Shown: positions 8,747 to 35,261 of the stretch, in pieces
Layout: the number at the start of each line of letters is the position of its first letter
How positions within the stretch are numbered: position 1 is the stretch's first letter
DNA from: Acaryochloris sp. IP29b_bin.176
GTDB taxonomy: Bacteria; Cyanobacteriota; Cyanobacteriia; Thermosynechococcales; Thermosynechococcaceae
Direction of reading: 5' to 3'
Length of the DNA stretch: 40,173 nt
Assembly: GCA_028285315.1 (NCBI GenBank)
Contig: JANQPU010000333.1
Span: forward strand, 1-40,173
The notes under the pieces: model-generated
Told to the model about the DNA's origin: nothing
Seen by the model: only the letters and a program-made list of their open reading frames with translations
The model's database searches: none
Translations under genes and position numbers: made by a program

Positions 8747-9667
8747 ATGTTCCAAAATCTGAAGTTAGGTGTCAAGCTCAATCTCATTTTGCTTTCAGTC
8801 TTTTTAGTTATTATTCTAATTAATGGATTGCTTTTATCCAATATCTTGCAGAAAAATGCTGAACAAGAAGTAAAAGATAAAGCGCTTGTGCTGATGGAGA
8901 CGATGACCTCTGTTCGTGAATATACTAGTCAGCAAGTCAATCAAGGAACCATCAAAAAGCTGTCTCCAGATCTAGAAATTGATGGTCAGTTTATTAAAAC
9001 TAGTGTTCCTGGCTATTCAGCTCGAGAAGTTTTCAGTAACTTGCGAGAACGGGAACAATATAGTGACTTTTTCTATAAAGAGGCAACGCTTAATCCAACC
9101 TATATTCCAGATAAGGCGGACAAGTTTGAAACTAAGATTGTAGAAAATTTTAGGGCGCAACCTGATATTAAGGAAAAAGTTGGTTTTAGACAGCTTGATG
9201 CTGGAGATTTATTTTATATTGCTCGACCCTTACAAGTTAATGACGAAAGCTGTTTAGTCTGCCACAGTACACCAGATAGGGCACCTGCCAGCCAAATTAA
9301 AACCTATGGAGATAAAGGGGGATTCGGTTGGGAATTAAATGAAATTGTGGGTGCTCAAATGATTCAAGTGCCTGCCAGTAGAGTATTTGAAGAAGCTCGA
9401 CGATTACAGCTCTTAGTCATTGGCATCTTAGCGGCCGGGTTTGTCATCGCTGCGGTTATTCTTAACCTATTTCTAAAGTTCTCCATTATTACTCCCTTAA
9501 CCAAAATGTCCAAGTGGTCTCGGGATGTTAGTACCGGTTCATCAGATGCTGATTTTGAGCATAAATCCAATGATGAAATTGGTGTCTTAGCTGCTTCTGT
9601 TAACCGCCTGAAGGTGAGTTTAGAAATGGCGATGAATATGCTCAAGCAAAACCCTGAGAACCCCTGA
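8747..9667 (+). CDS. Membrane sensor with Tll0287-like c-type haem domain and HAMP domain, no output domain
   Basis: This 306-residue protein has a first transmembrane helix at about residues 11-33. An extracytoplasmic domain follows, with one c-type haem motif CLVCH (Cys169, Cys172, His173), of the DUF3365/Tll0287-like type. A second transmembrane helix lies at about 220-243 and a HAMP domain at about 244-295. The protein then stops: no histidine kinase, cyclase or chemotaxis domain is present. By family knowledge such proteins sense redox state or a small ligand through the haem; here the HAMP helix must act on a separate partner. It is divergent from the PhnD-like lipoprotein gene. The gene ends seven bases before the convergent ABC-transporter gene. 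Confidence 0.85.
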   Translation: MFQNLKLGVKLNLILLSVFLVIILINGLLLSNILQKNAEQEVKDKALVLMETMTSVREYTSQQVNQGTIKKLSPDLEIDGQFIKTSVPGYSAREVFSNLREREQYSDFFYKEATLNPTYIPDKADKFETKIVENFRAQPDIKEKVGFRQLDAGDLFYIARPLQVNDESCLVCHSTPDRAPASQIKTYGDKGGFGWELNEIVGAQMIQVPASRVFEEARRLQLLVIGILAAGFVIAAVILNLFLKFSIITPLTKMSKWSRDVSTGSSDADFEHKSNDEIGVLAASVNRLKVSLEMAMNMLKQNPENP

Positions 9668-9674
9668 TTAGGCT

Positions 9675-12365
9675 TTAGAAAAAATCTTTAGCTTTTTGGA
9701 CCGCTAGTGTCAGAGCAAAAATCGCAAATATGAAGATGCCAAAGATTCCTAAGTGCTGATTGACGTTAACTTTGAATGTATTGCTAAATTGTTCGTTAAT
9801 GCCGTTGATTAAGCCTTCAGCGGCGCTAATGGCACCATTCCGCTTTAGGTTCCACTCAGTTAAGTCTTCTTGATACTTTTCTAGATCTTTATTGAATTTA
9901 TCAAAGGCACCAGGAGCTTGGGCATCAGCACCCGTCGGTTGCTGTGGCTGTTTGGGCTTGGGCTGATCGACAATGGGGTCATATTCTTGAAGGATGCCGG
10001 GAAACTCACATTGCTTGAAGACACTTTCTCCCATACAGTCACAGCTTTTTTTGCGATCGTCCTCAATCTCATCGTATTCTTCGACCTTGCCTGAAGTGAC
10101 ATCTTGCCAACACGGATCCTCAGCAACATCAATGCCTGCTTCAGAAAGGGTGGAGAGGGCTTCAAAAGGCCACTTTGTCAGGGATAACTGATTGAGAACC
10201 TTACCCGGAGGACCAAAAGTTTCAATCGGCAAGACCCCGCCGCCAAAAATAATTTGCGGAATGAGAAAGACCAATACCAAAATCGGAGCCACGCTCTGAT
10301 TGGGGGCAGCGGCAGATCCCAACAGCCCCAACAACATCCCGGCAATGACGGAGAGGGTAATCGTCAGATACATGCCCAGGAGGATGCCTGGTTCGCTTGG
10401 TAAATCTTTAACGGCAATGATTTTAAACAGCAAGAAGATACCGCCCTGATAGAGAGCAAGCAGGACACTGACCCAAACCTTAGAAAAGACATAGGGGGCA
10501 ATCTGCAGACCGATGATTCTTTCCCGACGATAGATATCAACTTCTTTAACGATTTCCCGCATCGTTGGCAAAGCTCCCACCATGACTGCAAACAAGATGG
10601 TGGTAAACAGCATGGTCAAGGCCAAACTGGCATCGCCGTCTTCAGTACTGAAAAGCGGTTGGCTCCAGGTCACTAGATCAAGTAGTCCTAGGATAGGAGC
10701 GACTGCCAGCATTAGCAAGAGGCTGACGCGATCGCGCATCAGAATCGCGATATTCCGTTTCGACAGAATCAAAAACTGCTTCCAACTCGAGATGGTCTTG
10801 ACCTGGGCTCCCGGCAACTGCTGGCGAATCCGTTTGGGTCCTCGATTGCCTCCAGATGCCCCCAAAGATTGTTGACGCTGAGCAACATATTTTTGATAGA
10901 GAGGAGATTTAAGATAGCGTTGTTGCCACTCTTGAGGGGATAGCTCATGCTCAACCTTAGTATAGATTTGGTTGAACTTCTCTACCCCAAAATATTGGGG
11001 AGCTTCCTTAGGTGGACCGTAGTAGGCTAAATATCCGCCTTGGGCCATAAACACAACCTGATCGCACATCGTCACATTGTCAGTGGCATGCGTGATCAAC
11101 AAAATCGTCCGGCCCTGATCAGCCAGTTCTCGCAACAGTTGCATCAACTCTGCTTCCGTGCCCGGATCCAAACCTGATGTTGCTTCATCTAAATAAAACA
11201 GACTCGGTTTGGTCAGCAGCTCTACCCCAATGGAGACTCGTTTAATTTGTCCCCCACTCAACGACTTGATCGGGACTGAACGGCGATGGGCAATGCCCAA
11301 ATCTTGCAGGACTTCGTTGACCCGCATTTTGCGTTCTGCTCGGGTTGTATCATTGGGCATGCGCAGTTGAGCCGCAAAATCTAGCGCTTGTTCAACGGTT
11401 AACTCCATATGAACAATGTCCCGCTGGGGAACATAGCCAATTTCGCTCCGATAGGCGTTGAAATTACGATATAAATCAGTGCCGTTAACTAGGACATTAC
11501 CGCTAGTCGCCGGACGAAAACCATTCAGTGCATCGAGTAAAGTAGATTTACCCCCGCCACTGACACCCGCAATCACCACAAATTCTCTAGCCTGAATAGA
11601 TAAGGAGATATCTTGCAACAGATTGAGATCCTTATTGATCACCTTATTCAGACCAATGGCATCAATCCGAAGGTTGCCCTCTTCATTACTATGTAATAGG
11701 GTCTCGTTCAGGTTAAATACCAGGTTCGTGGGACCAATGCGAATGGTGTCACCCACTCGTAGTGGATGATGTCCCACAATTTGCTTGCCATTGAGAAAGG
11801 TGCCATTCGTAGAGTTGAGATCGAGCACAATATAGGCCCCGTCCTGCTTCTTGATTTGGGCATGAAATCGCGAGACAGAAGGATGGTTGATTTCCATGTC
11901 GTTGAGAGGATCACGACCCAAGGTGAGGGTATCTCGCCCCTTCAAATCTAGATGGCGGGCTTGTGTAGGGGGGCTTCCTAAACCAGGATCGGGCATACCC
12001 GAAATGGTCGTTTTTTGTGCTGAGACAGGAGCGGCTGACGGAGCAGCAATAGGAGCTGTAACTGAAAACATTAATTCATAGTTGCCGATGCGGACTTGAT
12101 CGCCTGCGACCAACGTCCGAGGAGTATGGGGGGCCAGCTGAATTCCGTTGACGTAGGTTCCATCAGAGCTATTTAAATCGGTGACGACGTAAGCACTTCC
12201 AGAATATTTGAATTGGGCATGATGTCTAGAAACGGACAAATCATCACTCAAAACTAAATGATTATCTGGGGAGCGACCTAAACTGACTTCAGTTTGAGTC
12301 AGCGGAAATTCTCTGATTAGAGCTTGGTCTTTGCGAATATCAAGTTTGGCAGCAGGATTAGGCAT
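9675..12365 (-). CDS. ABCG-type transporter half with two N-terminal FHA domains
   Basis: This 896-residue protein joins two FHA domains (about residues 27-100 and 147-219, each with GR, SRxHA and NG motifs), an ABC ATPase, and an ABC2 membrane domain. The ATPase shows Walker A GVSGGGKST (about 267-275), signature LSGGQ (369-373), Walker B FYLDE and the switch His in LLITHATD. Five membrane helices fall between about 545 and 712, and a last one near the C-terminus (873-890). Between them is a roughly 150-residue hydrophilic insert with several cysteines and a Pro/Gln-rich part. FHA domains bind phosphothreonine, and the gene directly upstream encodes a Ser/Thr kinase, so regulation by phosphorylation is likely. 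Substrate unknown. I prefer the ATG at 12365 over a TTG at 12404. Confidence 0.88.
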   Translation of the reverse strand: MPNPAAKLDIRKDQALIREFPLTQTEVSLGRSPDNHLVLSDDLSVSRHHAQFKYSGSAYVVTDLNSSDGTYVNGIQLAPHTPRTLVAGDQVRIGNYELMFSVTAPIAAPSAAPVSAQKTTISGMPDPGLGSPPTQARHLDLKGRDTLTLGRDPLNDMEINHPSVSRFHAQIKKQDGAYIVLDLNSTNGTFLNGKQIVGHHPLRVGDTIRIGPTNLVFNLNETLLHSNEEGNLRIDAIGLNKVINKDLNLLQDISLSIQAREFVVIAGVSGGGKSTLLDALNGFRPATSGNVLVNGTDLYRNFNAYRSEIGYVPQRDIVHMELTVEQALDFAAQLRMPNDTTRAERKMRVNEVLQDLGIAHRRSVPIKSLSGGQIKRVSIGVELLTKPSLFYLDEATSGLDPGTEAELMQLLRELADQGRTILLITHATDNVTMCDQVVFMAQGGYLAYYGPPKEAPQYFGVEKFNQIYTKVEHELSPQEWQQRYLKSPLYQKYVAQRQQSLGASGGNRGPKRIRQQLPGAQVKTISSWKQFLILSKRNIAILMRDRVSLLLMLAVAPILGLLDLVTWSQPLFSTEDGDASLALTMLFTTILFAVMVGALPTMREIVKEVDIYRRERIIGLQIAPYVFSKVWVSVLLALYQGGIFLLFKIIAVKDLPSEPGILLGMYLTITLSVIAGMLLGLLGSAAAPNQSVAPILVLVFLIPQIIFGGGVLPIETFGPPGKVLNQLSLTKWPFEALSTLSEAGIDVAEDPCWQDVTSGKVEEYDEIEDDRKKSCDCMGESVFKQCEFPGILQEYDPIVDQPKPKQPQQPTGADAQAPGAFDKFNKDLEKYQEDLTEWNLKRNGAISAAEGLINGINEQFSNTFKVNVNQHLGIFGIFIFAIFALTLAVQKAKDFF

Positions 12366-20004: not shown

Positions 20005-21900
20005 ATGAGTAACCTTTTCCACTGGCTACCTGAACACCCAGATTTCAGGAGCGAATTAGCGAAGATCAAACAGTCCATCAGCTCTGCTGATCATCAGCTT
20101 CAGCAAATTCGTAACCTTGCAAATCACAATTTAGACTTCAGGCAAATTAACCGCATTGACAACCTTATGGGAAAGGTTGCTGCTGAAGCAACATCACAAG
20201 CCAATCTGCGCCTAGCCATTGTAGGGTCAAGCACCGTAGAGCATCTTCTCCCATCCATCCGGGTTGCGGCACTGCGAAGAAAAGTGATGGTGGACGTCTA
20301 TATAGCCCCCTATGGCTTATACCGCCAGGAAATTCTTAATCCTAGCTCTGATCTGTACCAGTTTGTCCCAGATGTTGTTCTCATGGCACTTGGCGCTGAT
20401 GCACTATCAGTACAACTACCTCTCCATAGTCCTATGAGCGTTGTACAGGATTCAGTGCAACAGCAAGTTGAGGAATGGGAACACCTTTGGATAGTTCTTT
20501 CAGAACAATGCAGTGCTACTATCATTCAACATTTATTAGTGCTTCCACCAGAGACTCTCTTTGGCCAGTATGATGCACTACTTCCTGCTAGCCGGAATAA
20601 TATCTTGTCCGAAGCTAATAGTGTTCTAAGAAAAAAAGCTCGTCAACGTAATGTGCTGTTATTGGATGTTGATGCTTTAGCATCAACTATTGGTAAGAAT
20701 AATTGGTGTGACCCCTCACTATGGCATCATGCAAAGCAAGAAATATCTCCTGCTTTTGCGCCATTATATGGAGATGCAGTGTCAGGCCTTCTTGCAGCTC
20801 TACGGGGTCTATCTTATAAATGCTTAGTCTTAGATCTAGACAATACTTTGTGGGGAGGTGTCATCGGTGATGATGGGCTTGAGGGGATTGAAATAGGCCA
20901 GGGGAATGCTACTGGGGAAGCGTTTTTGGCTTTTCAGAATTATGTCAAATCATTAAAGGAACGAGGAATTATTCTAGCAGTATGCTCAAAGAATAATGAA
21001 GACAATGCTTTAGAGCCCTTCAAACTGCACCCCGAAATGGTTCTAAAGCAGGATGATATTTCTTGTTTTGTTGCGAATTGGGATGACAAAGCAACAAATA
21101 TTCGACAAATCGCATCTCAACTAAATATTGGTCTTGATTCCCTTGTATTTTTCGATGATAATCCTGTAGAACGCGGTATTGTCAGGCAATATGTGCCTGA
21201 AATTGCAGTTGTGGAGGTTCCTGAAGATCCTGCTAACTATGTGAGATGTCTTGCAAGTACGGGCTATTTTGATGCTGTTTCCTTCTCTGCAGATGACCAA
21301 GTTAGGACGGAGCAATATATTGCCAATCGGCAACGCCAAACTCTCAAGGATACGGCTCACACTATTGATTCCTTCCTAGAGACGCTCAAAATGGAAATGA
21401 TTGTTTCTCCTTTTGAGAAGCTGTCTATTCCGAGAATTACTCAACTTATTAATAAGAGTAATCAATTTAATCTTACTACCCGACGATATACGCAGGTTCA
21501 AGTCGAGGAAATGGCCAGTGATCCTACTATCCTAGACTTTCAAATTCGCTTATCGGATAAATTTGGGGATAATGGGTTAATTAGTGTAGTGATTGGGAAG
21601 CCGTCCCCTGATGATCCGCAATCTTTGCATTTAGATACTTGGTTGATGAGCTGCAGAGTACTTGGGAGGCAAGTTGAGCACGAAGTCTTAAATTCTATTG
21701 CCGAACGTGCTCAGAAATGTGGTTTTAATGTTCTTGTTGGGGAATACATTAAAACAGCTAAAAATGATATGGTCAAGGATCTATATGAAAGGCTAGGTTT
21801 TACTCGTATTCATGAAGATAGTGGTAATGCTGATCACAGCTTGTGGTATCTTGCATTAGCTGAGTTTGTTAAAACCCCTACTTTTATTAATGTGAAGTAA
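20005..21900 (+). CDS. FkbH-like HAD-IIIC family enzyme (probable acyl/glyceryl-ACP loading)
   Basis: This 631-residue protein has an N-terminal part of about 250 residues resembling an SGNH-like region. A HAD domain follows: catalytic DLDNTLWGG (Asp277, Asp279), SKNN (Ser328, Lys329) and FFDDNPVERG (Asp384, Asp385). The C-terminal region of about 180 residues is GNAT-like. This is the FkbH architecture. Characterised FkbH proteins take 1,3-bisphosphoglycerate, remove phosphate and place a glyceryl group on an acyl carrier protein. The next gene encodes an acyl carrier protein, so loading is likely here too. All HAD residues are present. AGGTGA five bases upstream supports the start. The exact acyl group is unknown. 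Confidence 0.85.
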   Translation: MSNLFHWLPEHPDFRSELAKIKQSISSADHQLQQIRNLANHNLDFRQINRIDNLMGKVAAEATSQANLRLAIVGSSTVEHLLPSIRVAALRRKVMVDVYIAPYGLYRQEILNPSSDLYQFVPDVVLMALGADALSVQLPLHSPMSVVQDSVQQQVEEWEHLWIVLSEQCSATIIQHLLVLPPETLFGQYDALLPASRNNILSEANSVLRKKARQRNVLLLDVDALASTIGKNNWCDPSLWHHAKQEISPAFAPLYGDAVSGLLAALRGLSYKCLVLDLDNTLWGGVIGDDGLEGIEIGQGNATGEAFLAFQNYVKSLKERGIILAVCSKNNEDNALEPFKLHPEMVLKQDDISCFVANWDDKATNIRQIASQLNIGLDSLVFFDDNPVERGIVRQYVPEIAVVEVPEDPANYVRCLASTGYFDAVSFSADDQVRTEQYIANRQRQTLKDTAHTIDSFLETLKMEMIVSPFEKLSIPRITQLINKSNQFNLTTRRYTQVQVEEMASDPTILDFQIRLSDKFGDNGLISVVIGKPSPDDPQSLHLDTWLMSCRVLGRQVEHEVLNSIAERAQKCGFNVLVGEYIKTAKNDMVKDLYERLGFTRIHEDSGNADHSLWYLALAEFVKTPTFINVK

Positions 21901-22027
21901 TAATTAAAGTGGAGTATATCTATTTTGCATTGATAAACACTAATCTTTTTTATATAGATTATTGAAAAAACGCAGTTTCTTCTTTTGGGTTAAAGTAATA
22001 GATATTAGAAGGGTTTGAGGTATTTTA

Positions 22028-22276
22028 ATGGATCGCAAAGGAATATTTGAACAGTTATTGACCGTTTTTCAAGATGTTTTTGATGATGATGATCTTGAAA
22101 TAAAAAATGAAACTTCTGCTAAGGATATAGAAGATTGGGACTCATTTAATCATATAAATATTGTTCTTGGAACTGAACAAGAATTCGGTGTGAAGTTTAA
22201 GACTGCTGAAATTGCTGCCTTAGCAAATGTTGGTGAATTCGTAGATTTGATAGCTAGAAAGCTGAACATTCAATAA
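22028..22276 (+). CDS. Acyl carrier protein
   Basis: This 82-residue acidic protein has the ACP four-helix pattern. The phosphopantetheine site is DSF with Ser39 (WDSFNHINIV) instead of the more usual DSL, as in many specialised stand-alone carrier proteins. GAGGT lies six bases before the ATG. It is placed between the FkbH-like gene (127 bases upstream) and the MBOAT gene (161 bases downstream), so it probably carries the group loaded by the former and used by the latter, as DltC does in Dlt systems. Base composition is very AT-rich: about 29% GC over 22021-22140 by hand count. Confidence 0.9.
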   Translation: MDRKGIFEQLLTVFQDVFDDDDLEIKNETSAKDIEDWDSFNHINIVLGTEQEFGVKFKTAEIAALANVGEFVDLIARKLNIQ

Positions 22277-22413
22277 ACGACAACGACAAATACTTAAAGC
22301 AGTAATTTGGATTTCTGGGTTAATGTTTTATATGATAATTATTTTCAGGAATAAATATAGTTGACTTAGTGCTTAATCAAAAAACTGCAAGATTTTTGTA
22401 GTGTGATTTTCTC

Positions 22414-22435
22414 AAATAGCGGCAGGCTATTTTTT
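22414..22435 (+). terminator. Terminator-like hairpin touching the MBOAT start codon
   Basis: AAATAGC (22414-22420) and GCTATTT (22426-22432) pair perfectly around loop GGCAG, and the T-run continues to 22435. The ATG of the next gene begins at 22438, two bases after the following G. It could stop transcripts from fkbH/acp, or act on translation, because it occupies the whole ribosome-site region of the MBOAT gene. Confidence 0.5.
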
Positions 22436-22437
22436 GA

Positions 22438-24057
22438 ATGCTATTTAATTCTTTTGAATTTATTTTCCTTTTTTTGCCAGTTACTGTAGTAGTTTTCTAC
22501 TCACTTCTGAAGCAGAAGTGGGAAAAACTAGCAGTAACATGGTTAGTCCTAGCATCGCTTTTCTTTTACGCATGGTGGAATCCTCCATATTTGGTGCTGT
22601 TATTAGTTTCTATCGGTTTTAACTATTCCATCAGCAGAGCACTATGCCATTATGAGCAAACCAACAAGAATCGTTTAGGAACTATTATTCTCTGGATTGG
22701 GATTTTTATAAACTTGCTCACTATTGGCTATTATAAATATTTTAATTTTTTCCTAGACACTGTTGATCATTTGTTCCGTACTTCAAGTGTTGTCACACAA
22801 ATAATTCTTCCTCTAGGGATATCATTTTATACTTTTCAACAAATTGCATACCTTATTGACTCCCATGAAGGTGAAACCAAAGAAGATAGTTTTCGAGATT
22901 ATTGCTTATTTGTTTCCTTCTTTCCGCAACTCATTGCTGGACCAATTGTTACCCATAAGGAAATGATTCCTCAATTTGCCGATCTTTCTAGGATTTCAAA
23001 ATTGACGAAAAATTTAACAATTGGCATAACTATATTTGCATTCGGATTATTCAAGAAAACAGTACTAGCTGACCAAATCTCTATATATGCTTCTCCTGTA
23101 TTCGATGCGGCAAACCAGGGAGTAAATCTAACAATCTTTGAGGCTTGGGGTGGTGCTTTAGCGTATACGCTACAAATCTACTTTGACTTTTCAGGATATA
23201 CCGATATGGCGATTGGAGCCGGTCGGATGTTTGGCTTGAGATTGCCCACAAATTTTAATTCTCCCTATCAGGCAATTAATATTATTGACTTTTGGGGTAG
23301 ATGGCATCTGACATTGACTCGTTTTTTAACTCGATATTTATACAATCCTCTAGCATTGCTAATGTCTAGGCGTCGATTAAATAGCGGAAAGAGTTTAATT
23401 AAGCGTGGCTTAGGAAGCCCTGGTGCATTTGCTGAATTAGTTGCTTTACCAACTTTAACTACTATGTTTTTAGCCGGTCTTTGGCATGGAGCAGGATGGC
23501 AATATATCGTCTTTGGATTGTTGCATGGGTTCTACCTCACGATTAATCACGGATGGCATATGATCAGAAAAATTTTGGGTCACGATCTCAAGAAAAATAG
23601 TTGGATTGGTCGGAGAGCTTCTCATGCACTGACTTTTCTTTCTGTAGTTGTGGCAATGGTATTTTTTCGGGCTCCAAATGTACAAGCAGGGATATTTATG
23701 TTGTCCTCTATGGCAAATGTTAGAGGATTAATGGGAGGTGAATATTTTATTAACTTTGTTTTTGGCAATCCTAAAGTCGGTGCTGGCGATCCTAAATTTG
23801 GAATTGTCTTTGTTGGTATTCTGTTAGCAATAACGTTTCTATGTCCGAATACGCAAGAATGGGTTTCTGATTATGACCCTGCATTAGGGTTTGATGTTTC
23901 GAGCTATTACAAGAAGCAACCCAAGTGGAAAATTAACTTCTGGAGGAAGTTCCGTTGGCAACCTACTATCTTTTGGGGCGCTTTAACCTCAGGGATTTTG
24001 GTCATGGGTTTGTTGGCGCTATCAGGTGTGAGTGAATTTATCTATTTCCAATTTTAA
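22438..24057 (+). CDS. MBOAT family membrane O-acyltransferase (AlgI/DltB-like)
   Basis: This 539-residue integral membrane protein has about ten hydrophobic helices. MBOAT marks are clear: the typical start LFNSFEFIFLFLP, FFPQLIAGPI, YFDFSGYTDMAIGAGRMFG, IIDFWGRWHLTLTRFLTRYL, and GLWHGAGW with the conserved active-site His350. AlgI, PatA and DltB relatives move an acyl group across the membrane onto a polysaccharide or teichoic acid. With an ACP gene before it and an SGNH-type gene after it, a DltB-like role taking an ACP-bound group is likely. The acceptor is presumably the glycan made by the downstream locus. No ordinary ribosome site is present; a hairpin abuts the start codon. Confidence 0.92.
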   Translation: MLFNSFEFIFLFLPVTVVVFYSLLKQKWEKLAVTWLVLASLFFYAWWNPPYLVLLLVSIGFNYSISRALCHYEQTNKNRLGTIILWIGIFINLLTIGYYKYFNFFLDTVDHLFRTSSVVTQIILPLGISFYTFQQIAYLIDSHEGETKEDSFRDYCLFVSFFPQLIAGPIVTHKEMIPQFADLSRISKLTKNLTIGITIFAFGLFKKTVLADQISIYASPVFDAANQGVNLTIFEAWGGALAYTLQIYFDFSGYTDMAIGAGRMFGLRLPTNFNSPYQAINIIDFWGRWHLTLTRFLTRYLYNPLALLMSRRRLNSGKSLIKRGLGSPGAFAELVALPTLTTMFLAGLWHGAGWQYIVFGLLHGFYLTINHGWHMIRKILGHDLKKNSWIGRRASHALTFLSVVVAMVFFRAPNVQAGIFMLSSMANVRGLMGGEYFINFVFGNPKVGAGDPKFGIVFVGILLAITFLCPNTQEWVSDYDPALGFDVSSYYKKQPKWKINFWRKFRWQPTIFWGALTSGILVMGLLALSGVSEFIYFQF

Positions 24058-24099
24058 TCTCTCTAACCTTTTATTCTGAATTAAGTGAAATGAGATAAT

Positions 24100-25236
24100 A
24101 TGAGCTTTTCTTCGCGCTCCTCAGATCATCAGGGCAATCACGAGAATAAACCATATGGAAGATTTTTGCTGGTCTTACTAGGGTTTTCTATTTTTTACTT
24201 GATATTGACATTTGTATGTAATCTTACTGTTGATCCTTATGGGTTATGGAGAAATGGTGGTAGACGCGATAATGACAGATTAATTAAAGCAATTAAAGTG
24301 AGCAGGATACGACCAAAGACGATATTTCTTGGTTCATCTTCTATTGTAATTGGATTGGATCCTAAGCATGTTGCTCTATCTAACAAACAGCCAGTATACA
24401 ATTTAGGGTTATTCGGTTCTAATATCTATGAAATAAGAAGATATTTTGAACATTCTTTAAGCACAAATAGCTTGAATACAGTTATTTTAAGTCTAGATTT
24501 CTATGCCTTCAGTCAACATCAAAAAACTGCACCTGGTTTTAGTGAGTCGAGGCTAGGCAACCATTTTGGCGATGTCCAAGACTATATTAGTTTATATTTC
24601 TCCCTCGATGCATTAAACTTGGTGATTGATCCATCTAAACGAGGAGCGTATTTAACACATGAAGGAGCATATCATCGCAAGGCGGATCCTGATAAAATTA
24701 GAGAAAATTTTGAGTCAGAATTAATTGAAGATTTCTCTGAAAAAGATTTATATGGAGATTTTAAACTGTCTCAATCATATGTAGAGGATTATCAAAAAAT
24801 CATTGCCAGTGCAAAAGAAAATCAGCTAGAAACGTTGACTTTTGTTCCCCCCATCCATGCAACACTTTTTTATGGGTTTGTTACGTCTGAGAGGTGGAGT
24901 GAATATAAATCTTGGTTGCGTAGTATGGTCGCAGTCAATCCAACTTGGGATTTTTCAGGGTGTAACAGTATAACGACGCAACCGATCAAGCCAGGTCTTA
25001 ATACTTATTTCGATGCTCCCCACTACACAATGAAAGTTGGTGACTGGTTAATAAGGCGGATGCTAAATTATAACGCTGACTCAATACCTTCTGATTTTGG
25101 TGTTCTAGTGACATCCGAAAATATCGAAGAACATTTAAAGAAAACCTATGATGATTGTTTGACTTGGCAGACACAAAATCCTGAGATAGTAAAATGGGTT
25201 GATGATATTAAAATATCAGCTTCAAAGGTTAAGTAA
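24100..25236 (+). CDS. Membrane-anchored SGNH-type protein (DltD/AlgX-like role)
   Basis: This 378-residue protein has one N-terminal transmembrane helix (about 20-42) and then a large domain that should face the periplasm. SGNH-type residues can be seen: LGSSS (Gly78-Ser81), NLGLFGSN (101-108) and, near the end, the Asp-x-x-His pair DAPH (Asp305, His308). This matches the catalytic Ser-Asp-His set of SGNH acyl transfer/esterase proteins such as DltD. It follows an MBOAT gene by 42 bases, the same order as dltB and dltD partners or algI with algJ/X. It could complete transfer of the acyl group to the glycan. Sequence similarity to DltD itself is not obvious; the match rests on motifs and order. 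Confidence 0.7.
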   Translation: MSFSSRSSDHQGNHENKPYGRFLLVLLGFSIFYLILTFVCNLTVDPYGLWRNGGRRDNDRLIKAIKVSRIRPKTIFLGSSSIVIGLDPKHVALSNKQPVYNLGLFGSNIYEIRRYFEHSLSTNSLNTVILSLDFYAFSQHQKTAPGFSESRLGNHFGDVQDYISLYFSLDALNLVIDPSKRGAYLTHEGAYHRKADPDKIRENFESELIEDFSEKDLYGDFKLSQSYVEDYQKIIASAKENQLETLTFVPPIHATLFYGFVTSERWSEYKSWLRSMVAVNPTWDFSGCNSITTQPIKPGLNTYFDAPHYTMKVGDWLIRRMLNYNADSIPSDFGVLVTSENIEEHLKKTYDDCLTWQTQNPEIVKWVDDIKISASKVK

Positions 25237-25264
25237 ACAGAGCTAGTAGGCTGTTTGTTGTTTT
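25235..25264 (+). terminator. Weak terminator-like stem after the SGNH-type gene
   Basis: AAACAG (25235-25240, overlapping the stop codon) pairs with CTGTTT (25251-25256), followed by GTTGTTTT. The stem is only six pairs, so it is at best a weak terminator. Confidence 0.3.
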
Positions 25265-25380
25265 AGGCTGCATAAAAATAAAAATGTTGTTGAACAGTTT
25301 TATATGGCTTCTAGATGCCGATTTTACTCGGTTTGTGTAACATTTCTCTCTGCTTTTAGTTATTATGATGTCTCACTAAA

Positions 25381-26913
25381 ATGATTCTATCAACTGATCA
25401 AAATAATATTGTTTTTAGCTTGGAAGATCTCAATCAGTTTAGCGCTATTAGTCGCGATCGCAATCCGCTACACTTATCTGCTGATTATGCTCGTAAAACA
25501 CCATATGGTGAGCAAGTGGTGTTTGGTGTCTTAGGGGCTTTAAAGTGTTTAAACCTCTTGAAAGATCGTATAGATTACTCATTGTCAAAAATCTCTATTG
25601 ACTTTCTAGGTCCTCTTTTTATAGATATTGTCTATCAGCTAGTCGTTGATGATAAAAAACCTGAAAAGGCAGTCTTGAAGATCTATGATGGATCGCGCTT
25701 ATTGTTAAAAGCAGCTCTTGCTTTTTCTCCAGGAAAAGTTGCATTAACTGATATTGGCAAGCTTTCAAATTCTAATTTATCTTTTTCTCAAGAATCGGAG
25801 TTCTATGAACCTAGCTTGCTTACATCCGGTCGAACATTAGAGGGGAAATATTCTCCTGATTTAGAAGAAGTGGGCCGCTTGCCCTTCAGTCTGCCCAATT
25901 TGAAGAGTAAAGGGATTGGTCTAGAGCATCTGACTACATTGCTATGTTCTACCTATTTGATAGGTATGAGACTACCTGGCAAACAGGCCCTTTTTTCTAA
26001 GCTTAAGCTTCGATACCCTGACTCTCAAAATGGCTCTCGTTCGTTAGAAAAATTAGACTACTGTTTAGAAATCCTGGAGTTTGATACTCGATTTCAACTT
26101 TTAAGGCTTGGAGTAAGCTTCGAAAATGAAAGCTATGGTTCCGTGGCGTCAGGCGAATTACAAGCTTTTGTAAGACCCATCCTTCCTACCCCAACACCGA
26201 GTCTTCTCAGCAGCTACTTACCTGCCTCTGACCGTTTAGCAGGGAAAGTTGCCTTAATTACAGGAGCGAGTAGAGGTCTGGGAGCTACTTTGGCTCAAAC
26301 CTTGGCTTCCCAAGGTTGTACGACACTTATTAACTACCATCGTAGTACCGATGAAGCCCAAAAGGTTGCTGCTCAATTTCCAGAAAAAATTTCTTTAATG
26401 CAAGGAGATGTGAGTGATATCGAGTGGTGTATGACCGCTAGAAAGTCGATTGAAGAGAAATATGGCCGCCTTGATTATTTGATTTGTAATGCATGTCCAC
26501 CCATTATACCGCTGCGATTCGAAGCGGATACAGTTGAGAGGATCAATACATTTATACATAAAAGTATTGCCCTTGTGAGCATACCAATGTCTGTGTTTTT
26601 GAATATAATCGTTGCGTCTGCTGGGTGGAATATTGCTATCTCTTCTATTTATACGGTTGAGGAAGCACCTGTAGAATTATCGCATTACATTAGTGCAAAA
26701 TTTGCAATTGAAGGATTACTGAAAGCATTAGCAATGGAAAATGAAGACATCCATTCATTACTAGTGAGACCTCCTAAACTATTAACTGATCAGACCAATA
26801 CTCCTTTAGGACGCGAAGGGGCTTTATCTACAGTTGAAATCTCAGCAAAGCTTGTTGACTACTTGTTGGCACAAAAATCTTCGAAAGTGTTTGATGTCCT
26901 AGAGTTTTTGTGA
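25381..26913 (+). CDS. MaoC-like hydratase fused to a short-chain dehydrogenase/reductase
   Basis: This is a 510-residue soluble fusion. The first 120 residues are a MaoC/PhaJ-like hot-dog domain with the hydratase pair Asp26 and His31 in RDRNPLHLS. About 160-265 looks like a second, degenerate hot-dog. From about 287 an SDR domain begins: TGASRGLG (294-301), Ser421/422, Tyr436 and Lys440 (YISAK). The usual NNAG is replaced by CNACPP. Together the domains could reduce and hydrate/dehydrate an ACP-bound chain, such as a 3-hydroxyacyl group. It follows the FkbH-ACP-MBOAT-SGNH genes by 144 bases and may tailor the same ACP cargo; that is inference. No ribosome site is seen before the ATG. It contains the only HIP1 site between 18.7 and 30.8 kb. 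Confidence 0.8.
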   Translation: MILSTDQNNIVFSLEDLNQFSAISRDRNPLHLSADYARKTPYGEQVVFGVLGALKCLNLLKDRIDYSLSKISIDFLGPLFIDIVYQLVVDDKKPEKAVLKIYDGSRLLLKAALAFSPGKVALTDIGKLSNSNLSFSQESEFYEPSLLTSGRTLEGKYSPDLEEVGRLPFSLPNLKSKGIGLEHLTTLLCSTYLIGMRLPGKQALFSKLKLRYPDSQNGSRSLEKLDYCLEILEFDTRFQLLRLGVSFENESYGSVASGELQAFVRPILPTPTPSLLSSYLPASDRLAGKVALITGASRGLGATLAQTLASQGCTTLINYHRSTDEAQKVAAQFPEKISLMQGDVSDIEWCMTARKSIEEKYGRLDYLICNACPPIIPLRFEADTVERINTFIHKSIALVSIPMSVFLNIIVASAGWNIAISSIYTVEEAPVELSHYISAKFAIEGLLKALAMENEDIHSLLVRPPKLLTDQTNTPLGREGALSTVEISAKLVDYLLAQKSSKVFDVLEFL

Positions 26914-27382
26914 TCAGTTGATAAGCGGGATCTATTTTTTTGAGTTTCCCCTAGTCACTCTGTATTTGAGCTTTGAGGGATCTAAATTTAGAGTGACAAT
27001 CATATTCCTAGCTAGTTTTATAGACTAATCAGGACAAAGTCTTCTAAAGTTATGTTGATTATTAGTACATTGTTGAATAACAAGTTCTGGCTGTTTACTG
27101 AAGATATTATATTGAGGGGCTATAGATAAAGCTTGAGTATGCATATTTAAGACGATATTGTACTAATCTGATTAGTCAAGCTTTCCATTTCATGTTTGCG
27201 TAGACTGTGTACTTAAGACGAGGATTTTAAGGTCAAAGCATATACTTATGTATTTAGATGTAAATAAGGAGCTATTGTTTGTGTGACGTGTGTCACGTTA
27301 ATGAATTTCAAGTCTTTCCATTATAGGAATTAATTGTTCCAATATTTTTGGCTGAATCTGCCCCGTAAAACATGTGGACATC
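26914..27382. other. AT-rich intergenic region between acylation and CDP-sugar modules
   Basis: No gene is seen in 469 bases. Two structures stand out: an inverted repeat GTCACTCT (26954-26961) / AGAGTGAC (26990-26997) soon after the reductase stop, and a CRP-like palindrome at 27282-27297. The region probably holds the promoter for the CDP-sugar genes. Confidence 0.5.
27282..27297 (+). promoter_or_regulatory. CRP-like binding site upstream of the CDP-glucose gene
   Basis: The sequence TGTGA-CGTGTG-TCACG matches the CRP-family consensus TGTGA-N6-TCACA at nine of ten fixed positions. It contains the perfect palindrome GTGAC-GTGT-GTCAC (27283-27296). It ends 85 bases before the ATG at 27383. 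Cyanobacterial SyCRP1 binds such sites, so cAMP control is plausible. Confidence 0.55.
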
Positions 27383-28192
27383 ATGACTGATTCGCAAACT
27401 CCTAATATTCCGGTGGCTATCTTATGTGGTGGCAAAGGCACAAGACTAAAAGAAGAAACTGAGTTCCGTCCCAAGCCAATGGTCATGGTTGGTGATCGTC
27501 CGATGATTTGGCACATCATGAAAATCTATGCTCACTATGGTTTCACGGACTTTCTCCTCTGCCTTGGCTATAAAGGCGATATGATTCGTGAGTACTTCTT
27601 TAACTATGATTGGAACCACAGTAATGTCTTGCTGGAATTGGGGGCTAAGAAAATCACCAAATTAGATAGTACTCATGGTGAAGAAAACTGGAGAATTTGG
27701 TTAATTGATACTGGCCCTGAGACAATGACTGGGGGGCGACTAAAGCGTCTGTCTCCTTATTTCAAAGACATTGGTAGTGACCTGTTTATGGGCACTTATG
27801 GGGATGGTGTTAGTAACGTTAACATTCAGCAATTACTGGAATTTCATCGTAGTCATGGAAAACTAGCTACAATTACCTCAGTTCGCCCTCCCTCTCGTTT
27901 TGGCGAGTTAGCCATTGATAACGATTTTGTAAGCCACTTTCAAGAAAAACCGCAAACCAGTGAAGGTTGGATCAATGGCGGGTACTTTGTCTTTCATCGC
28001 AAGGTTTTGGATTTAATTCAAGGGGATAGTACAGTCCTAGAAGCTGAACCTTTTAAGGCATTGGCTGCTTTGGGAGAGCTAGCAGTCTACAAGCATGATG
28101 GATTTTGGCAGTGTATGGATACCTATAGAGAGTTAGAACTCCTCAATCAACTGTACACCTCCAATCAAGCACTTTGGAGGGTTTGGTCATGA
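27383..28192 (+). CDS. rfbF: Glucose-1-phosphate cytidylyltransferase
   Basis: This 269-residue enzyme makes CDP-glucose from CTP and glucose-1-phosphate, the entry point to CDP-linked deoxysugars. The nucleotide loop is [15 protein letters not shown], followed by [19 protein letters not shown]. The long insert typical of RfbF, rather than RmlA or GalU, is seen around [11 protein letters not shown] and [20 protein letters not shown], then [12 protein letters not shown] chose the ATG at 27383 over a GTG three codons earlier. The stop overlaps the start of the dehydratase gene (ATGA), so the two are translationally coupled. Confidence 0.95.
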
Positions 28193-29172
28193 GTAAATTT
28201 TGGCAAGATCGGTCGGTGTTGATTACTGGTTGCACTGGGCTGCTAGGCAGTTGGATGACTCAAGAACTGATCGCTCGTGGCGCTCGTGTCGTTGGCTTGG
28301 TACGAGACTGGATACCTCAGTCTCGGTTATTTACCGAGGGGCTATCCAATCAAATTACAACTGTTTATGGGAGCATTGAAGATTTAGGCACTTTAGAACG
28401 AGCTATCAATGAATATGAGGTCGATACAGTCTTCCATTTGGCAGCGCAAACCATTGTTGGCGTTGCTAATCGTGAACCCTTGGGGACTTTTGAAGCCAAT
28501 ATTAAGGGAACTTGGAATATTTTAGAAGCTTGTCGTCGCGTAGGGGGAGTTAGTCGTATTGTTGTGGCTTCTAGCGATAAGGCCTATGGCGATCAAGAGA
28601 TCTTACCCTATGATGAGCAAACCCCACTCCAGGGTGAGCATCCCTATGATGTGTCTAAAAGTTGTGCTGATTTGCTATGCCGGACTTATTACGTGACCTA
28701 CCAGTTACCGGTCTGTATCACACGCTGTGGTAATTTTTATGGCGGTGGAGATCTGAATTTTAATCGTATTGTGCCTGATACGATTCGATCCACATTGCGC
28801 GATAAGTCAATTGTTATTCGGAGTGATGGGACGTATGTTCGGGACTATTTTTACGTTAAAGATGGTGTGCTAGCTTATCTCCATCTGGCTGAACAAATGG
28901 ATCGACCTGAAATACTAGGTGAGGCATTTAACTTTAGTAATGAGCTGCAAATATCAGTACTAGAGTTAGTGCACAAAATTCTGAAGTTAATGAACAAACC
29001 TCATCTAGAACCGACTATTCTGAATCAAGCCCAGAATGAAATTAAACATCAATATCTTTCTGCAGAGAAGGCAAGAAAACTATTGAATTGGAGATCTCAA
29101 TATGATCTGAATGATGCATTATTAGAAACCATTCAATGGTATAAGACATTTCTTGAGTCAGCTCCAGCTTAG
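28189..29172 (+). CDS. rfbG: CDP-glucose 4,6-dehydratase
   Basis: This 327-residue extended SDR enzyme converts CDP-glucose to CDP-4-keto-6-deoxyglucose with bound NAD+. It shows [12 protein letters not shown] (nucleotide loop), [18 protein letters not shown] and the catalytic YDVSK, followed by [19 protein letters not shown], which is characteristic of CDP-glucose dehydratases. The ATG at 28189 overlaps the rfbF stop by four bases and has GGAGG at 28176-28180; the longer TTG reading inside rfbF is not needed. The epimerase gene follows 18 bases after the stop. Confidence 0.94.
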
Positions 29173-29190
29173 CAATTGTATAGGAAGGGC

Positions 29191-29748
29191 ATGCAACTTC
29201 ATTCCACAAAGATTCCAGGCTGTTTTGAATTAGAACTGAATGTTTTTCAGGATCAGCGTGGTCGCTTTGTTAAAATATTTCATCGAGATATTTTCGAAAG
29301 TCATCATTTAGAAACTCATTTCGCAGAAGCATATTATTCTTACTCTATCCAGAATGTTTTGAGGGGACTCCATTTCCAAATTCCGCCTAAGGATCATACA
29401 AAGATGGTTCACTGTGCTCAGGGGGAGGTCATTGATGCAGTCGTCGATCTAAGGATTGGTTCGCCCACGTATGGGCAATTTGAAGTGTTTGAGCTGAGTG
29501 CAGAGAAGGGGAATTTAATCTATATCCCGCCAGGACTAGCGCACGGTTTCTACACCGCCAGTGAAGTTGCCTTATTGATGTATCAGGTGTCAACGGTTTA
29601 TGCCCCTGAACATGACAGAGGATTGTTGTGGAATTCTGCAGGGATTCCTTGGCCGAGTTCTAATCCTATTATTTCTGAAAAAGATCAAGAATGGACTGCC
29701 CTTGCCGAATTTGAGACCCCGTTTATCTATGAGTCTTCTGTCTCATGA
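29191..29748 (+). CDS. dTDP-4-dehydrorhamnose 3,5-epimerase-like enzyme (RmlC family)
   Basis: This 185-residue cupin of the RmlC family probably epimerises C3 and/or C5 of the CDP-4-keto-6-deoxyhexose made by the preceding enzyme. Family marks are FQDQRGRFVKIFHRD, NVLRGLHFQ (active-site His), DAVVDLRIGSPTYGQF and YIPPGLAHGFY. The match to RmlC is clear, but the context is CDP- rather than dTDP-sugars because no rmlA or rmlB is present. AGGA at 29182-29185 supports the ATG at 29191 over a TTG five codons earlier. The gene overlaps the next by ATGA. Confidence 0.92.
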   Translation: MQLHSTKIPGCFELELNVFQDQRGRFVKIFHRDIFESHHLETHFAEAYYSYSIQNVLRGLHFQIPPKDHTKMVHCAQGEVIDAVVDLRIGSPTYGQFEVFELSAEKGNLIYIPPGLAHGFYTASEVALLMYQVSTVYAPEHDRGLLWNSAGIPWPSSNPIISEKDQEWTALAEFETPFIYESSVS

Positions 29749-30677
29749 CTGATTCAAGATCACGCCCCACGGTCATCATTTCGGGTGCGAGTGGCTATTT
29801 TGGGGGGATTGCCTGCCAGTATTTTCGTGATCAGTCTTGGACTGTCTTGACTGCAACCCGCCACCAGGAGGCTGATTTATATTTTGATCTGAATCAACCG
29901 GAACACTTTGCCAAACAAGTGATCAATCAACCCGTGGATTTATTTATTCACGCGGCAGCTGCCCATGAAGTGACCTGTCGTGAGCAGCCTTATCAGAGTA
30001 TTTTTCAGAATTTTGCCGGTACGAAAGCTGCGTTGGACTTTTGCATTGCCAATCAAATTTCTCGGGTTGTCTATTTGTCAACTTTTCATGTATTTGGTCA
30101 TCCAACGGGACAGATTGATGAATTGACTCAGCCTTTGCCAGCCAATGACTATGGTTTAAGTCATTTACAATCTGAGGATTACTTGCGACTTTACCGCCGA
30201 GAGCAATCTTTGCAGACCTTAGTGTTGAGACCGAGTAACTTCTTTGGTGTGCCTGTTGATGTGGCGAGTTGTAAACGTTGGACATTAACACCCTTAGGAT
30301 TTTGCCGATCAGCGGTTGAGAAGAAACAAATTGTGCTGAGGACGCCGGGGTATCAGAGAAGGAATTTTATTGCGGTCCAGGATATTTGTGCCACGATCGC
30401 ATCGGCGTTCCATAAGATGGACACACTAGACTTACTCCATTTGCCGGGGCCGGAGACCCTGAGTATTCGGGAGCTTGCTCAGCTAGTACAGCGGGTGATG
30501 TGGCAGCAGTTTGACATTACGATTGATGTCGTGATGCCAGATGGTGAACCTATAGAAGATACGTTTACCTATTCAAGCCAGCGCTTAGCGACGGTTTATC
30601 ACCCTCAACTGACCCTAGAGAATTTCGTGCTGCAATTGTGCCAGCGTTTGCTCAAATCTGCAGACTTCGCAGTATGA
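29745..30677 (+). CDS. NAD(P)-dependent epimerase/reductase-like protein with His in place of catalytic Lys
   Basis: This 310-residue extended SDR protein is in the position where a 4-keto-reductase is expected. The nucleotide loop is IISGASGYFGG, then DLFIHAAAAHE and VVYLSTFHVFG with the conserved Ser/Thr. The catalytic YxxxK is YGLSH: the lysine is replaced by histidine. That may mean altered chemistry or a binding role. LRPSNFFG and RNFIAVQDI fit the family. It overlaps the epimerase gene by ATGA, so the five genes from rfbF probably act together. If active, it would finish a CDP-6-deoxyhexose by reducing C4. Confidence 0.82.
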   Translation: MTDSRSRPTVIISGASGYFGGIACQYFRDQSWTVLTATRHQEADLYFDLNQPEHFAKQVINQPVDLFIHAAAAHEVTCREQPYQSIFQNFAGTKAALDFCIANQISRVVYLSTFHVFGHPTGQIDELTQPLPANDYGLSHLQSEDYLRLYRREQSLQTLVLRPSNFFGVPVDVASCKRWTLTPLGFCRSAVEKKQIVLRTPGYQRRNFIAVQDICATIASAFHKMDTLDLLHLPGPETLSIRELAQLVQRVMWQQFDITIDVVMPDGEPIEDTFTYSSQRLATVYHPQLTLENFVLQLCQRLLKSADFAV

Positions 30678-30775
30678 TGATCGGCACCGTTGGCTGGGCA
30701 TGGATAGGTTAGGGTAGCGAGCAACCCACGAGTTGAAGGAAGACTGCTATAGTTTTGGGAACACTCTCTGGAAAT

Positions 30776-31933
30776 ATGCCTGAAGCGATCGTCAATGCTT
30801 TAAAACCAATCATCCGCCCTCTATTTAGTTGGGCTGTGCTCAAGCCTGCGATCGCATTTCTACTTCCTCGCCAAACCGTTGTCCAAGCGTTTGGTAGGGA
30901 CCATCCTAAGCATCGTCCTTTCCCACCTGAGACCTTTCCGACACCTGAAATTAAGCATATGCCGCCCTTTGATGGGCCCTTTCAGTATCTTGAGGGCGAG
31001 ACTTATACGACTCACGATATTTTCTCAACGGTGGTAGAGGGAGTATTAGTAGAACCCGGCAATGGGGTGGTGTTAACGTCATCCCGCAAGGTAATTGCCG
31101 AGTCTTTATATCCTCATATGGACGACATCACCATTTATGGGGCCTTACTCAACAAAAGCTTTCTCAAACGCAGGATGTTTGAGCAACCCGTTCAAGACAT
31201 TTCTGGATATGCCAGCCTCTATCAAGGCTTACCCAATGGGTACTATCACAAATTTATTGATTTGGTGCCGCGTTGTGCATTACTTTGCCAACCAGAATAT
31301 GCGGAAATTGATAACATTCAGCTTCTCTATGCCGATCCAGTGTCAGAAACAGAATCTTTTTTGGTACCGAAGCTGGTGCCTAAAAATGTAACCTTAACGA
31401 AGGTACAACCAGGTAGACTCTACCGAATTGAGAAATTAATTTTACCCACCTTCCTGACGCAATTTGGTTCTGGCTATCTACCACAAGCTTATATCCAGCG
31501 ACTCAGGGAAGCCGTTTTGCCTCAGCGTCCCCCGACGAAAGATAAGCGGATTTATATTTCCCGAGCACAGTCAGCCTCTGGGCTGAAAAAAAGACATATT
31601 GTCAATGAAGCAGAGTTGATTGCGGCTCTCAAGCCGTTGGGGTTCGGCACTTATGAGCTAGAAGATTACTCCCTGGAAGAAAAAATCAGTCTATTTTATG
31701 ATGCCGAAATTGTTGTGGGTGCCTATGGAGGGGGACTCACCCATGTGCTCTTTTCAGACCATGTCAAAATTTTGGAATTGCAAGTAATGGCCAAAACACA
31801 GACCTATTACTATTACTTGGCAAAAGCTTTGGGACATGATTATCGATTTTGGTTTTCGAATAAAGCCAATAACCGTGAGAATTTTGAGGTTGATATTCCT
31901 GAGATTTTGCAGTTACTAGAAGGATGGTGTTAA
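30776..31933 (+). CDS. Glycosyltransferase family 61 protein (DUF563)
   Basis: This 385-residue protein belongs to the GT61/DUF563 family. Visible features are NGYYHKFIDLVPRC in the middle, KRIYISRAQSASGLKKRHIVNE (split across the usual basic motif), LEDYSLEEKISLFYDAEIVVGAYGGG and LTHVLFSDHVKILEL towards the end. It has no clear signal peptide or membrane helix, so it likely works at the cytoplasmic face. It probably transfers the CDP-deoxyhexose or another sugar onto the growing glycan. The ATG at 30776 is preferred to a TTG seven codons earlier; the ribosome site is weak. A HIP1 site lies near the start (30848). Confidence 0.85.
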   Translation: MPEAIVNALKPIIRPLFSWAVLKPAIAFLLPRQTVVQAFGRDHPKHRPFPPETFPTPEIKHMPPFDGPFQYLEGETYTTHDIFSTVVEGVLVEPGNGVVLTSSRKVIAESLYPHMDDITIYGALLNKSFLKRRMFEQPVQDISGYASLYQGLPNGYYHKFIDLVPRCALLCQPEYAEIDNIQLLYADPVSETESFLVPKLVPKNVTLTKVQPGRLYRIEKLILPTFLTQFGSGYLPQAYIQRLREAVLPQRPPTKDKRIYISRAQSASGLKKRHIVNEAELIAALKPLGFGTYELEDYSLEEKISLFYDAEIVVGAYGGGLTHVLFSDHVKILELQVMAKTQTYYYYLAKALGHDYRFWFSNKANNRENFEVDIPEILQLLEGWC

Positions 31934-32168
31934 AACGGGGATGAAGCCATCCAGTAGCGAAAGAATAAAACTAGACTAAAGGGTTTCTGGATCTGAGAAA
32001 ATAAGGTGATGGCTCAAGTGGAAACTCTGTATCCAAGTTTGTGCCTAATGGGTACTTTTAGGATGCAAGTACTTAATGTTACCAATCCCTTAGGAAAACA
32101 GTTGTTTTGTACCAACAACAAACAGCTCAATAAGATACGCTAGAACTACTAATGAGATATTGATTTCT

Positions 32169-33169
32169 ATGCAATCTCTGATTACATCTGCCCAACCTAC
32201 TTTTGCCTCTCAAGTGGATAAGTTGCTGCTATTAGAAGCTGAAGCTATTGCTAAAGCAGCTGAGCGCTTACAACCCGATCAGGTTGATCGGGCAGTCGAG
32301 CTGATGATTAATTGCTCTGGGAAAGTGGTTTTGTCGGGGGTGGGCAAATCAGGAATTGTTGCGCGCAAAATCGCCGCTACCCTAACCAGTGTGGGAGTAA
32401 TGGCTGTATTCCTACACCCGGTCGAGGCGCTGCATGGTGATTTAGGCATTGTTGCCCTGAATGATGTGGTTGTGGTTTTAAGCAACAGTGGTGAAACGGA
32501 TGAACTGATTGCCATGTTGCCTTGTTTGAAACAGCGACAAGTTCCGCTCATTGCCCTGGTTGGTAATGTGCAATCGACGTTAGCGGATGAAGCGGATGTA
32601 GTCTTGGCGGCGACGGTTGACCAAGAAGCTTGTCCCATGAATTTAGCGCCAACGGCGAGTACGACAGTTGCGATCGCCATTGGTGATGCCTTGGCAATGA
32701 CCGTTACCCAAGCTAAAGGAGTGACTCCTGAAGCGTTTGCAGTTAATCATCCTGCGGGTCGACTGGGGAAACGCTTGACCATTAAGGTCTCTGATCTCAT
32801 GCACCAAGGCTCAGAACATCCTTGTATTTCTGCGGATGCTAGCTGGCTCCAAATCGTGACGAGTATCAGCCAAGGTGGGTTGGGAGCCGTGAATGTTGTG
32901 GATACTCACCATCAACTCCTGGGAATTGTCACCGATGGTGATCTGCGTCGGGCCATGGAGAAGATTCGCCCCGTAGACTTGGAACAGATGAATGCAGAGA
33001 AAATAATGACTGCTAACCCAACAACTACGGCTCCAGACCAATTGGCCTACGATGCCTTACAGGTTATGGAAAATCGTCCGTCTCAAATTTCTGTGTTACC
33101 CGTTGTCGATCGGGAGGAGCGCTGCGTCGGGCTATTGAGACTTCACGATATTGCTCAAGCGGGTCTCAT

Positions 33170-33173
<4 letters not shown>
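32169..33173 (+). CDS. kdsD: D-arabinose-5-phosphate isomerase (KpsF/KdsD type)
   Basis: This 334-residue isomerase interconverts ribulose-5-phosphate and arabinose-5-phosphate, the first step of Kdo synthesis. The N-terminal SIS domain has LSGVGKSGIVARKIAATL, HPVEALHGDLG and LSNSGETDEL. The middle includes NLAPTASTT and FAVNHPAGRLGKRL. Two CBS domains follow (about 205-330; GIVTDGDLRR). Domain order and length are normal. I use the ATG at 32169 rather than the TTG at 32160. The stop overlaps the kdsB start by ATGA, the first of three tight overlaps in this operon. Confidence 0.95.
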
Positions 33174-34742
<1,569 letters not shown>

Positions 34743-34743
<1 letters not shown>

Positions 34744-35261
34744 TGAGTATTCTGTCAACTGCCGACTTACATCCCCGACTCGCAAACGTTAAGCTCCTGG
34801 CATTGGATGTTGATGGTGTCTTGACGGATGGTGGTCTGTATTACACCGAAACTGGAACAGAACTGAAAAAGTTTAATGTCAAAGACGGACAAGGGCTGAA
34901 ACTCCTTATGCAGTCGGGAGTTGAAGTTGCCATCATTACGGCTAGTGATTCCCCTGTGACGCGACATCGGGCCAAGAAACTAGGGATTCAACATGTTTTC
35001 CTAGGGGTTGAAGATAAGCTCTCGGTGCTCAAATCCCTATGCCAGACCCTCAATTTTGATCTGACTCAAGTGGCCTATGCGGGAGATGATGTCAATGATT
35101 TGCCGATATTGCAAAACATCGGATGTCCCTTCACCGTGAATGATGCCATGCCTGCCAACCGTGCAGAAGCCATTTATATCACTCAAAAAGATGGAGGATG
35201 TGGCGCGGTGCGAGAACTTTGTGATTTACTGATTCAAAGTCAGGCCAGTCTCTCATCTTAA
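34743..35261 (+). CDS. kdsC: 3-deoxy-D-manno-octulosonate 8-phosphate phosphatase
   Basis: KdsC (172 residues) is a small HAD phosphatase that releases Kdo from Kdo-8-phosphate. The four HAD motifs are visible: LDVDGVLTDGGLYY, IITASDS, the lysine in VEDKLSVL, and YAGDDVNDLPIL. The ATG at 34743 shares one base with the kdsA stop; the TTG at 34740 is less likely. It ends 22 bases before the GT-B gene, so that gene is probably in the same operon. Confidence 0.95.

Follow-up and report, generated by a model that had tools for sequence, protein, structure and literature searches.

A candidate Dlt-like cassette for envelope lactylation fed by 1,3-bisphosphoglycerate in a cyanobacterium

In the Dlt system, DltA loads D-alanine on the acyl carrier protein (ACP) DltC, and DltB (an MBOAT protein) and DltD (an SGNH protein) pass the D-alanine to a cell-surface polymer. 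Enzymes of the FkbH type put glyceryl from 1,3-bisphosphoglycerate onto an ACP. A lactoyl-ACP starter module is used for FR901464 and bryostatin. For lankacidin, lactoyl-ACP derived from 1,3-bisphosphoglycerate has been proposed as the starter (Dorival et al., PMC6162330); He et al. 2014, listed among the references of that paper, reportedly described a dehydratase acting on glycerate together with a ketoreductase. A tool paper writes the FkbH loading reaction with D-lactate-ACP as the product (PMC7901079). Both lactyls and glyceryls are among the substituents of exopolysaccharides (PMC4432689). The locus described here is probably a Dlt-like trans-envelope lactylation cassette fed by 1,3-bisphosphoglycerate, with its reactions, its lactyl product and its acceptor all predicted.

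The five genes of the cassette

The window (the whole stretch of DNA analysed, 40,173 nucleotides from Acaryochloris sp. IP29b_bin.176) carries the following cassette genes:

20005..21900, + strand: predicted FkbH-type glyceryl-loading enzyme, 631 aa, with FkbH_N, a HAD core (DLDNT at 277) and a C-terminal acyl-transfer part (SCR at 549, Cys550)
22028..22276, + strand: stand-alone ACP, 82 aa, phosphopantetheine Ser39
22438..24057, + strand: predicted MBOAT O-acyltransferase, 539 aa, catalytic His350 by alignment with DltB
24100..25236, + strand: putative membrane-anchored SGNH-like acyltransferase (DltD/AlgJ analogue), 378 aa, one TM 18-45, GxS 78-80, DxxH 305-308
25381..26913, + strand: predicted MaoC double-hotdog dehydratase fused to an SDR ketoreductase (MaoC/SDR), 510 aa, fifth gene of the cassette

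The preliminary description had placed the first four genes, in this order, at 20005-25236, which is where they lie, but it stopped short of the MaoC/SDR gene, with which the cassette runs on to 26913. What can be read directly from the sequence is the set of five genes, the folds or motifs of their products and the conserved linkage. The FkbH protein belongs to its family by TIGR01686 (301.8 bits against a cut-off of 146.65) and also has FkbH_N (PF21211); the DxDNT and SCR motifs are present, and D277, D279 and C550 are invariant in a 12-row alignment. The ACP scored 20.6 bits with the PP-binding model (cut-off 20.8) and up to 34 bits with NCBIfam ACP models, and it comes after FkbH in every cyanobacterial cassette. 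The MBOAT is a member of PF03062 (66.3 bits, cut-off 27), and its profile matched the DltB structures 6bug (E 2.9e-30) and 8jem (about 3e-30) in the PDB. The two active-site residues named in the preliminary description hold: Ser39 of the ACP sits in a WDSF motif, and His350 of the MBOAT aligns with His336 of DltB (6bug), i.e. a catalytic His at the DltB position.

The fourth protein has, as had been described, a membrane anchor (a single N-terminal TM at 18-45 by hydropathy) and the Ser and DxxH motifs (G78-S-S80 and D305-A-P-H308), of which G78, S80 and H308 are invariant in an 8-row alignment. The Pfam signals of its family are weak and come from relatives (DUF1574 and DltD, with one relative matching PF04914 at E 0.1), the window's own protein had no PF04914 match in Pfam, and an AlphaFold model built from three sequences (pLDDT 52) was unusable for the fold. 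The putative SGNH-like assignment comes from the motifs together with the location of the gene directly behind that of the MBOAT.

The fifth protein consists of a MaoC-type hotdog, a second hotdog-like half and an SDR ketoreductase, and was modelled by AlphaFold with pLDDT 85. D26 and H31 of the MaoC part and S421, Y436 and K440 of the SDR part are invariant across 17 rows of relatives. The fold search gave SDRs only, because the SDR domain filled the list (matches included FabG types, Z 26), and the hotdog half was assessed by profile: the N-terminal MaoC profile matched 3-hydroxyacyl-thioester dehydratase 2 (HTD2; 3ir3, E 1.1e-14) and the (R)-specific enoyl-CoA hydratase PhaJ (1iq6, E 4.5e-12), both matches spanning the DxNPxH motif. 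The Pfam MaoC score of the window's protein is below the cut-off (22.6 vs 27 bits), and 14 of 14 family members match MaoC. The G+C content of the cassette is 32-42%, compared to 49-51% for mnmG and the kds genes flanking it on both sides, which suggests that the cassette has been acquired. Promoter and terminator scans gave no clear excess over shuffles.

Conservation of the cassette and of its parts

The conservation of gene order proposed as a check in the preliminary description was found in two further cyanobacteria and, short of the SGNH gene, in a third. All five genes are collinear in Leptolyngbyaceae RM1_1_2 (L036, genome G215) and in Pseudanabaenales MAG.87 (L037), and in Vasconcelosia minhoensis (L035) FkbH, ACP, MBOAT and MaoC/SDR are together, with an SGNH homologue alone on another contig. 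The MaoC/SDR gene is next in cassette order in these three and is thus present in four of four cyanobacterial cassettes. The MBOATs of the three other cassettes are 58-61% identical (60% in RM1_1_2). Flanking genes differ between the cassettes, save for kdsD-kdsB-kdsA, which follow the cassette in MAG.87 and, at a greater distance, in the window too. The lack of an SGNH gene in the Vasconcelosia cassette counts against the proposed lactylation cassette.

A set of 386 cyanobacterial genomes has 7 places with a close FkbH (E<=1e-90) and 18 with a close MBOAT (E<=1e-100), and the two adjoin, with identical gene order, in the window's genome and in that of RM1_1_2. The linkage is not due to chance, since such rare genes adjoin in the same order in two of the 386 genomes. 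The other 16 MBOAT places (about 38-48% identity, tblastn), several of which pair the MBOAT with an SGNH protein from the same family, had neither FkbH nor ACP beside them. As members of the same MBOAT and SGNH families are paired in this way where FkbH and ACP are absent, the pair alone is no proof of an ACP donor, and it could be that MBOAT and SGNH here perform an ordinary O-acetylation with another donor, the acyl-ACP of FkbH, ACP and MaoC/SDR serving a different transferase and the operon being merely shared. The trio does indeed go with other transferases in many other genomes, such as WcbI in Niveispirillum. Against this, the MBOAT lies between ACP and MaoC/SDR in each cyanobacterial cassette, and the four cassette MBOATs form one clade (support 100/100) apart from the MBOATs without FkbH; we consider a shared operon of this kind quite improbable. 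It is more in line with the DltB homology and with the position of the MBOAT gene that lactyl-ACP would be the MBOAT donor, as D-alanyl-DltC is for DltB.

The association of MaoC/SDR with FkbH extends beyond the cassette. In a genome scan, FkbH was close to MaoC/SDR in 16 of 21 loci, spanning Cyanobacteria, Nitrospira (eight loci), a Sericytochromatia MAG, Paenibacillus and Actinomycetes (Lentzea, Saccharothrix). MaoC and SDR also occur as two individual genes next to FkbH and ACP, in a picocyanobacterium (L116) and G053 (L114). A single polypeptide MaoC-SDR-FkbH-ACP-KS, by its domains a polyketide synthase loading module, is encoded in Paenibacillus, Ensifer canadensis and Streptomyces anulatus. 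On a Streptomyces griseofuscus plasmid, MaoC/SDR (33% identical to the window's), ACP and FkbH have a C-A-PCP-KS protein and a stand-alone DH as neighbours; judged by domain order, with an LkcA- and LkcB-like make-up, the locus appears to be lankacidin-type. A phylum-wide search with the entire MaoC/SDR protein returned mostly ordinary SDRs, and E. coli genomes gave no match to FkbH in a distant DNA search.

The transferred group and its acceptor

The wide recurrence of the trio, the fused loading modules and the lankacidin-type locus argue for lactyl-ACP, made via glyceryl- and pyruvoyl-ACP, as the likeliest product, a reading from homology and linkage. In this route, FkbH would transfer the glyceryl of 1,3-bisphosphoglycerate to the ACP, the MaoC domain would take off the beta-hydroxyl as water to give pyruvoyl-ACP, and the SDR domain would reduce the alpha-keto group to give lactyl-ACP. 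At the cytoplasmic face, the MBOAT would then pick the lactyl off the ACP and carry it through the inner membrane, and the anchored SGNH protein would esterify an extracytoplasmic glycan with it.

The starting view, as in the preliminary description, was that glyceryl (or a related hydroxyacyl) is the final group, and it was set back because the MaoC/SDR gene was found linked, making lactyl likelier than glyceryl. For glyceryl to be what the MBOAT and SGNH proteins attach to the polymer, MaoC/SDR would have to act in another step. Glyceryl esters of exopolysaccharides are already known (PMC4432689), and sets of FkbH, ACP and MBOAT without MaoC/SDR exist (see below), but MaoC/SDR is present in all the cyanobacterial cassettes and is fused to FkbH-ACP in the three loading modules, and we therefore regard glyceryl in this cassette as unlikely, though the strongest of the alternatives. 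It is also conceivable that the SDR works slowly or not at all and that the group moved is pyruvoyl or another glyceryl-derived C3 acyl. While a pyruvoyl-ACP starter was left open for lankacidin, the lankacidin lkcE mutant accumulated lactoyl alone as an intermediate (PMC6162330), and the invariant Ser, Tyr and Lys of the SDR in 17 relatives likewise count against an inactive reductase; a pyruvoyl product seems very improbable.

Glyceryl may nevertheless hold elsewhere. Alphaproteobacterial loci in Rhodobacteraceae SC52, Sinorhizobium meliloti (on pSymB) and Tistrella mobilis group FkbH with an ACP and an MBOAT, and each has an extra protein in the SGNH position that Pfam does not recognise. 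The sets thereby share four elements with the cassette, but differ from it in having VOC or methyltransferase genes and no detected MaoC/SDR, and they are annotated only generically. Unconverted glyceryl may be transferred in them. On the tree of MBOATs, three changes are required for the rows linked to FkbH and no bootstrap tree had only one, with sampling uneven and the Tistrella branch very long; it is possible that MBOATs have been recruited to FkbH-ACP several times.

The acceptor is predicted to be some extracytoplasmic glycan. The genes downstream of the cassette in the window encode a CDP-glucose cytidylyltransferase, a CDP-glucose dehydratase, an RmlC-like epimerase, an SDR and a GT61, and the glycan they would make had been named as the acceptor. 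This candidate is unsupported because the downstream genes are not conserved with the cassette: none of the other three cassettes has the CDP-sugar genes next to it, and the Vasconcelosia minhoensis genome has no close KdsB.

Relation to known systems and significance

The cassette shares with Dlt a dedicated ACP for a small acyl group, an MBOAT with a catalytic His and a membrane-anchored protein with SGNH-type motifs, and the predicted lactyl is the hydroxy counterpart of the alanyl of Dlt. In contrast to Dlt, where DltA is used, FkbH and MaoC/SDR would form the acyl-ACP from a glycolytic intermediate, the fourth protein is outside PF04914 and the host is a cyanobacterium. No AMP-binding domain (DltA) was found in any of the five proteins or in the neighbouring genes that were scanned, and the MBOAT scored 181.8 bits against the DltB equivalog TIGR04091, below the cut-off of 375. 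Lacking DltA and a DltD match, and with a DltB score under the cut-off, this is not a Dlt system, and the cassette would work in Dlt fashion without being Dlt. The idea of a trans-envelope acyl cassette in which FkbH-ACP replaces DltA-DltC, with a DltB/DltD-like exit, is supported, given the conserved gene order and the recurring sets in Alphaproteobacteria; taken as a whole, the earlier reading is partly supported.

With the lankacidin starter module the cassette has in common FkbH, ACP, a MaoC-type dehydratase and an SDR ketoreductase. However, the lactyl proposed for lankacidin begins a polyketide chain, whereas here it would exit by the MBOAT to a surface polymer. The AlgI/AlgJ/AlgX system for exopolysaccharide O-acetylation likewise has an MBOAT and a periplasmic SGNH-like protein, and the cytoplasmic donor of AlgI has been called unidentified (PMC4432689); unlike that system, the cassette encodes a dedicated ACP and loading enzymes beside the MBOAT. 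In the open-access literature that was searched, FkbH with MBOAT gave one unrelated review and HAD-IIIC with MBOAT gave nothing; the preliminary description had likewise known of no described system with this gene set. The parts are known, and their combination appears to be new.

A more general route from glycolysis to envelope acylation can be proposed, in which FkbH-loaded ACPs feed MBOAT/SGNH exporters and accessory genes set the acyl group (in cyanobacteria MaoC/SDR, giving lactyl; in Alphaproteobacteria VOC, methyltransferase or no such gene, giving a glyceryl-type group), possibly assembled more than once. We find the case for and against this generalisation evenly balanced. To our knowledge, no gene set has been assigned to the addition of lactyl or glyceryl to bacterial exopolysaccharides; the cassette is a candidate for such decoration of the coat and predicts the metabolite that feeds it. 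The model also predicts that a switch between lactyl and glyceryl could take place by gain or loss of MaoC/SDR. If true, a Dlt-like system in a Gram-negative-type envelope would be carrying the hydroxy analogue of alanine, which is uncharged, and enzymes of polyketide starter units would have been reused to decorate the envelope.

Base composition and downstream sugar genes

The stretch 20005-30677 of the window is probably an acquired island, because its G+C content is low (32-42% in the cassette, with a GC3 of 22-34%) between mnmG (51%) and the kds genes (49-50%). Further features of the window are:

27374-31933, CDP-glucose cytidylyltransferase, CDP-glucose 4,6-dehydratase, RmlC-like epimerase, SDR and GT61
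32160-35261, Kdo genes in a cyanobacterial host: KdsD, KdsB, KdsA and a KdsC-like HAD protein
39745-40110, part of a Tn3-family transposase, where the contig ends

Judged by their predicted products, the genes at 27374-31933 are a CDP-deoxysugar pathway. In another genome (G053, locus L034), a MaoC/SDR fragment has relatives of the pathway's cytidylyltransferase and dehydratase genes at a distance of about 5 kb. As in the window, kdsD-kdsB-kdsA is downstream of the cassette in Pseudanabaenales MAG.87.

Features of the FkbH proteins

The window FkbH (20005-21900) has, at residue 74 in its N-terminal part, a GSS motif like that of SGNH proteins. A frameshift, either sequencing error or decay, splits FkbH in the Leptolyngbyaceae RM1_1_2 MAG (L036, 4653-6574). 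The FkbH of Sinorhizobium meliloti pSymB is encoded in a single frame in some records and is split over two in others, strain 1021 among them.

Gene neighbours of FkbH in other bacteria

S. meliloti 1021 pSymB, 624000-644000 (L103), FkbH-ACP-hypothetical-MBOAT-VOC cluster
Niveispirillum (L104), 9.0-13.5 kb, FkbH-ACP-WcbI-MaoC/SDR
Maritalea (L118), 7314-11292, fusion of FkbH with an aminoglycoside 3-N-acetyltransferase-like domain, and the MaoC-SDR next to it

An FkbH-MaoC/SDR-ACP trio is present in many Nitrospira (L038-L045); in the two loci read (L039 and L043) it is followed by an ABC-type polysaccharide exporter ATPase, and no MBOAT was found beside it. By gene content, Niveispirillum has the same predicted acyl module as the cassette with a different putative transferase, WcbI. 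In Maritalea, the FkbH fusion adjoins a MaoC-SDR with a C-terminal ACP-like match, and both sit within a nonulosonate-type cluster, an arrangement that suggests sugar N-acylation.
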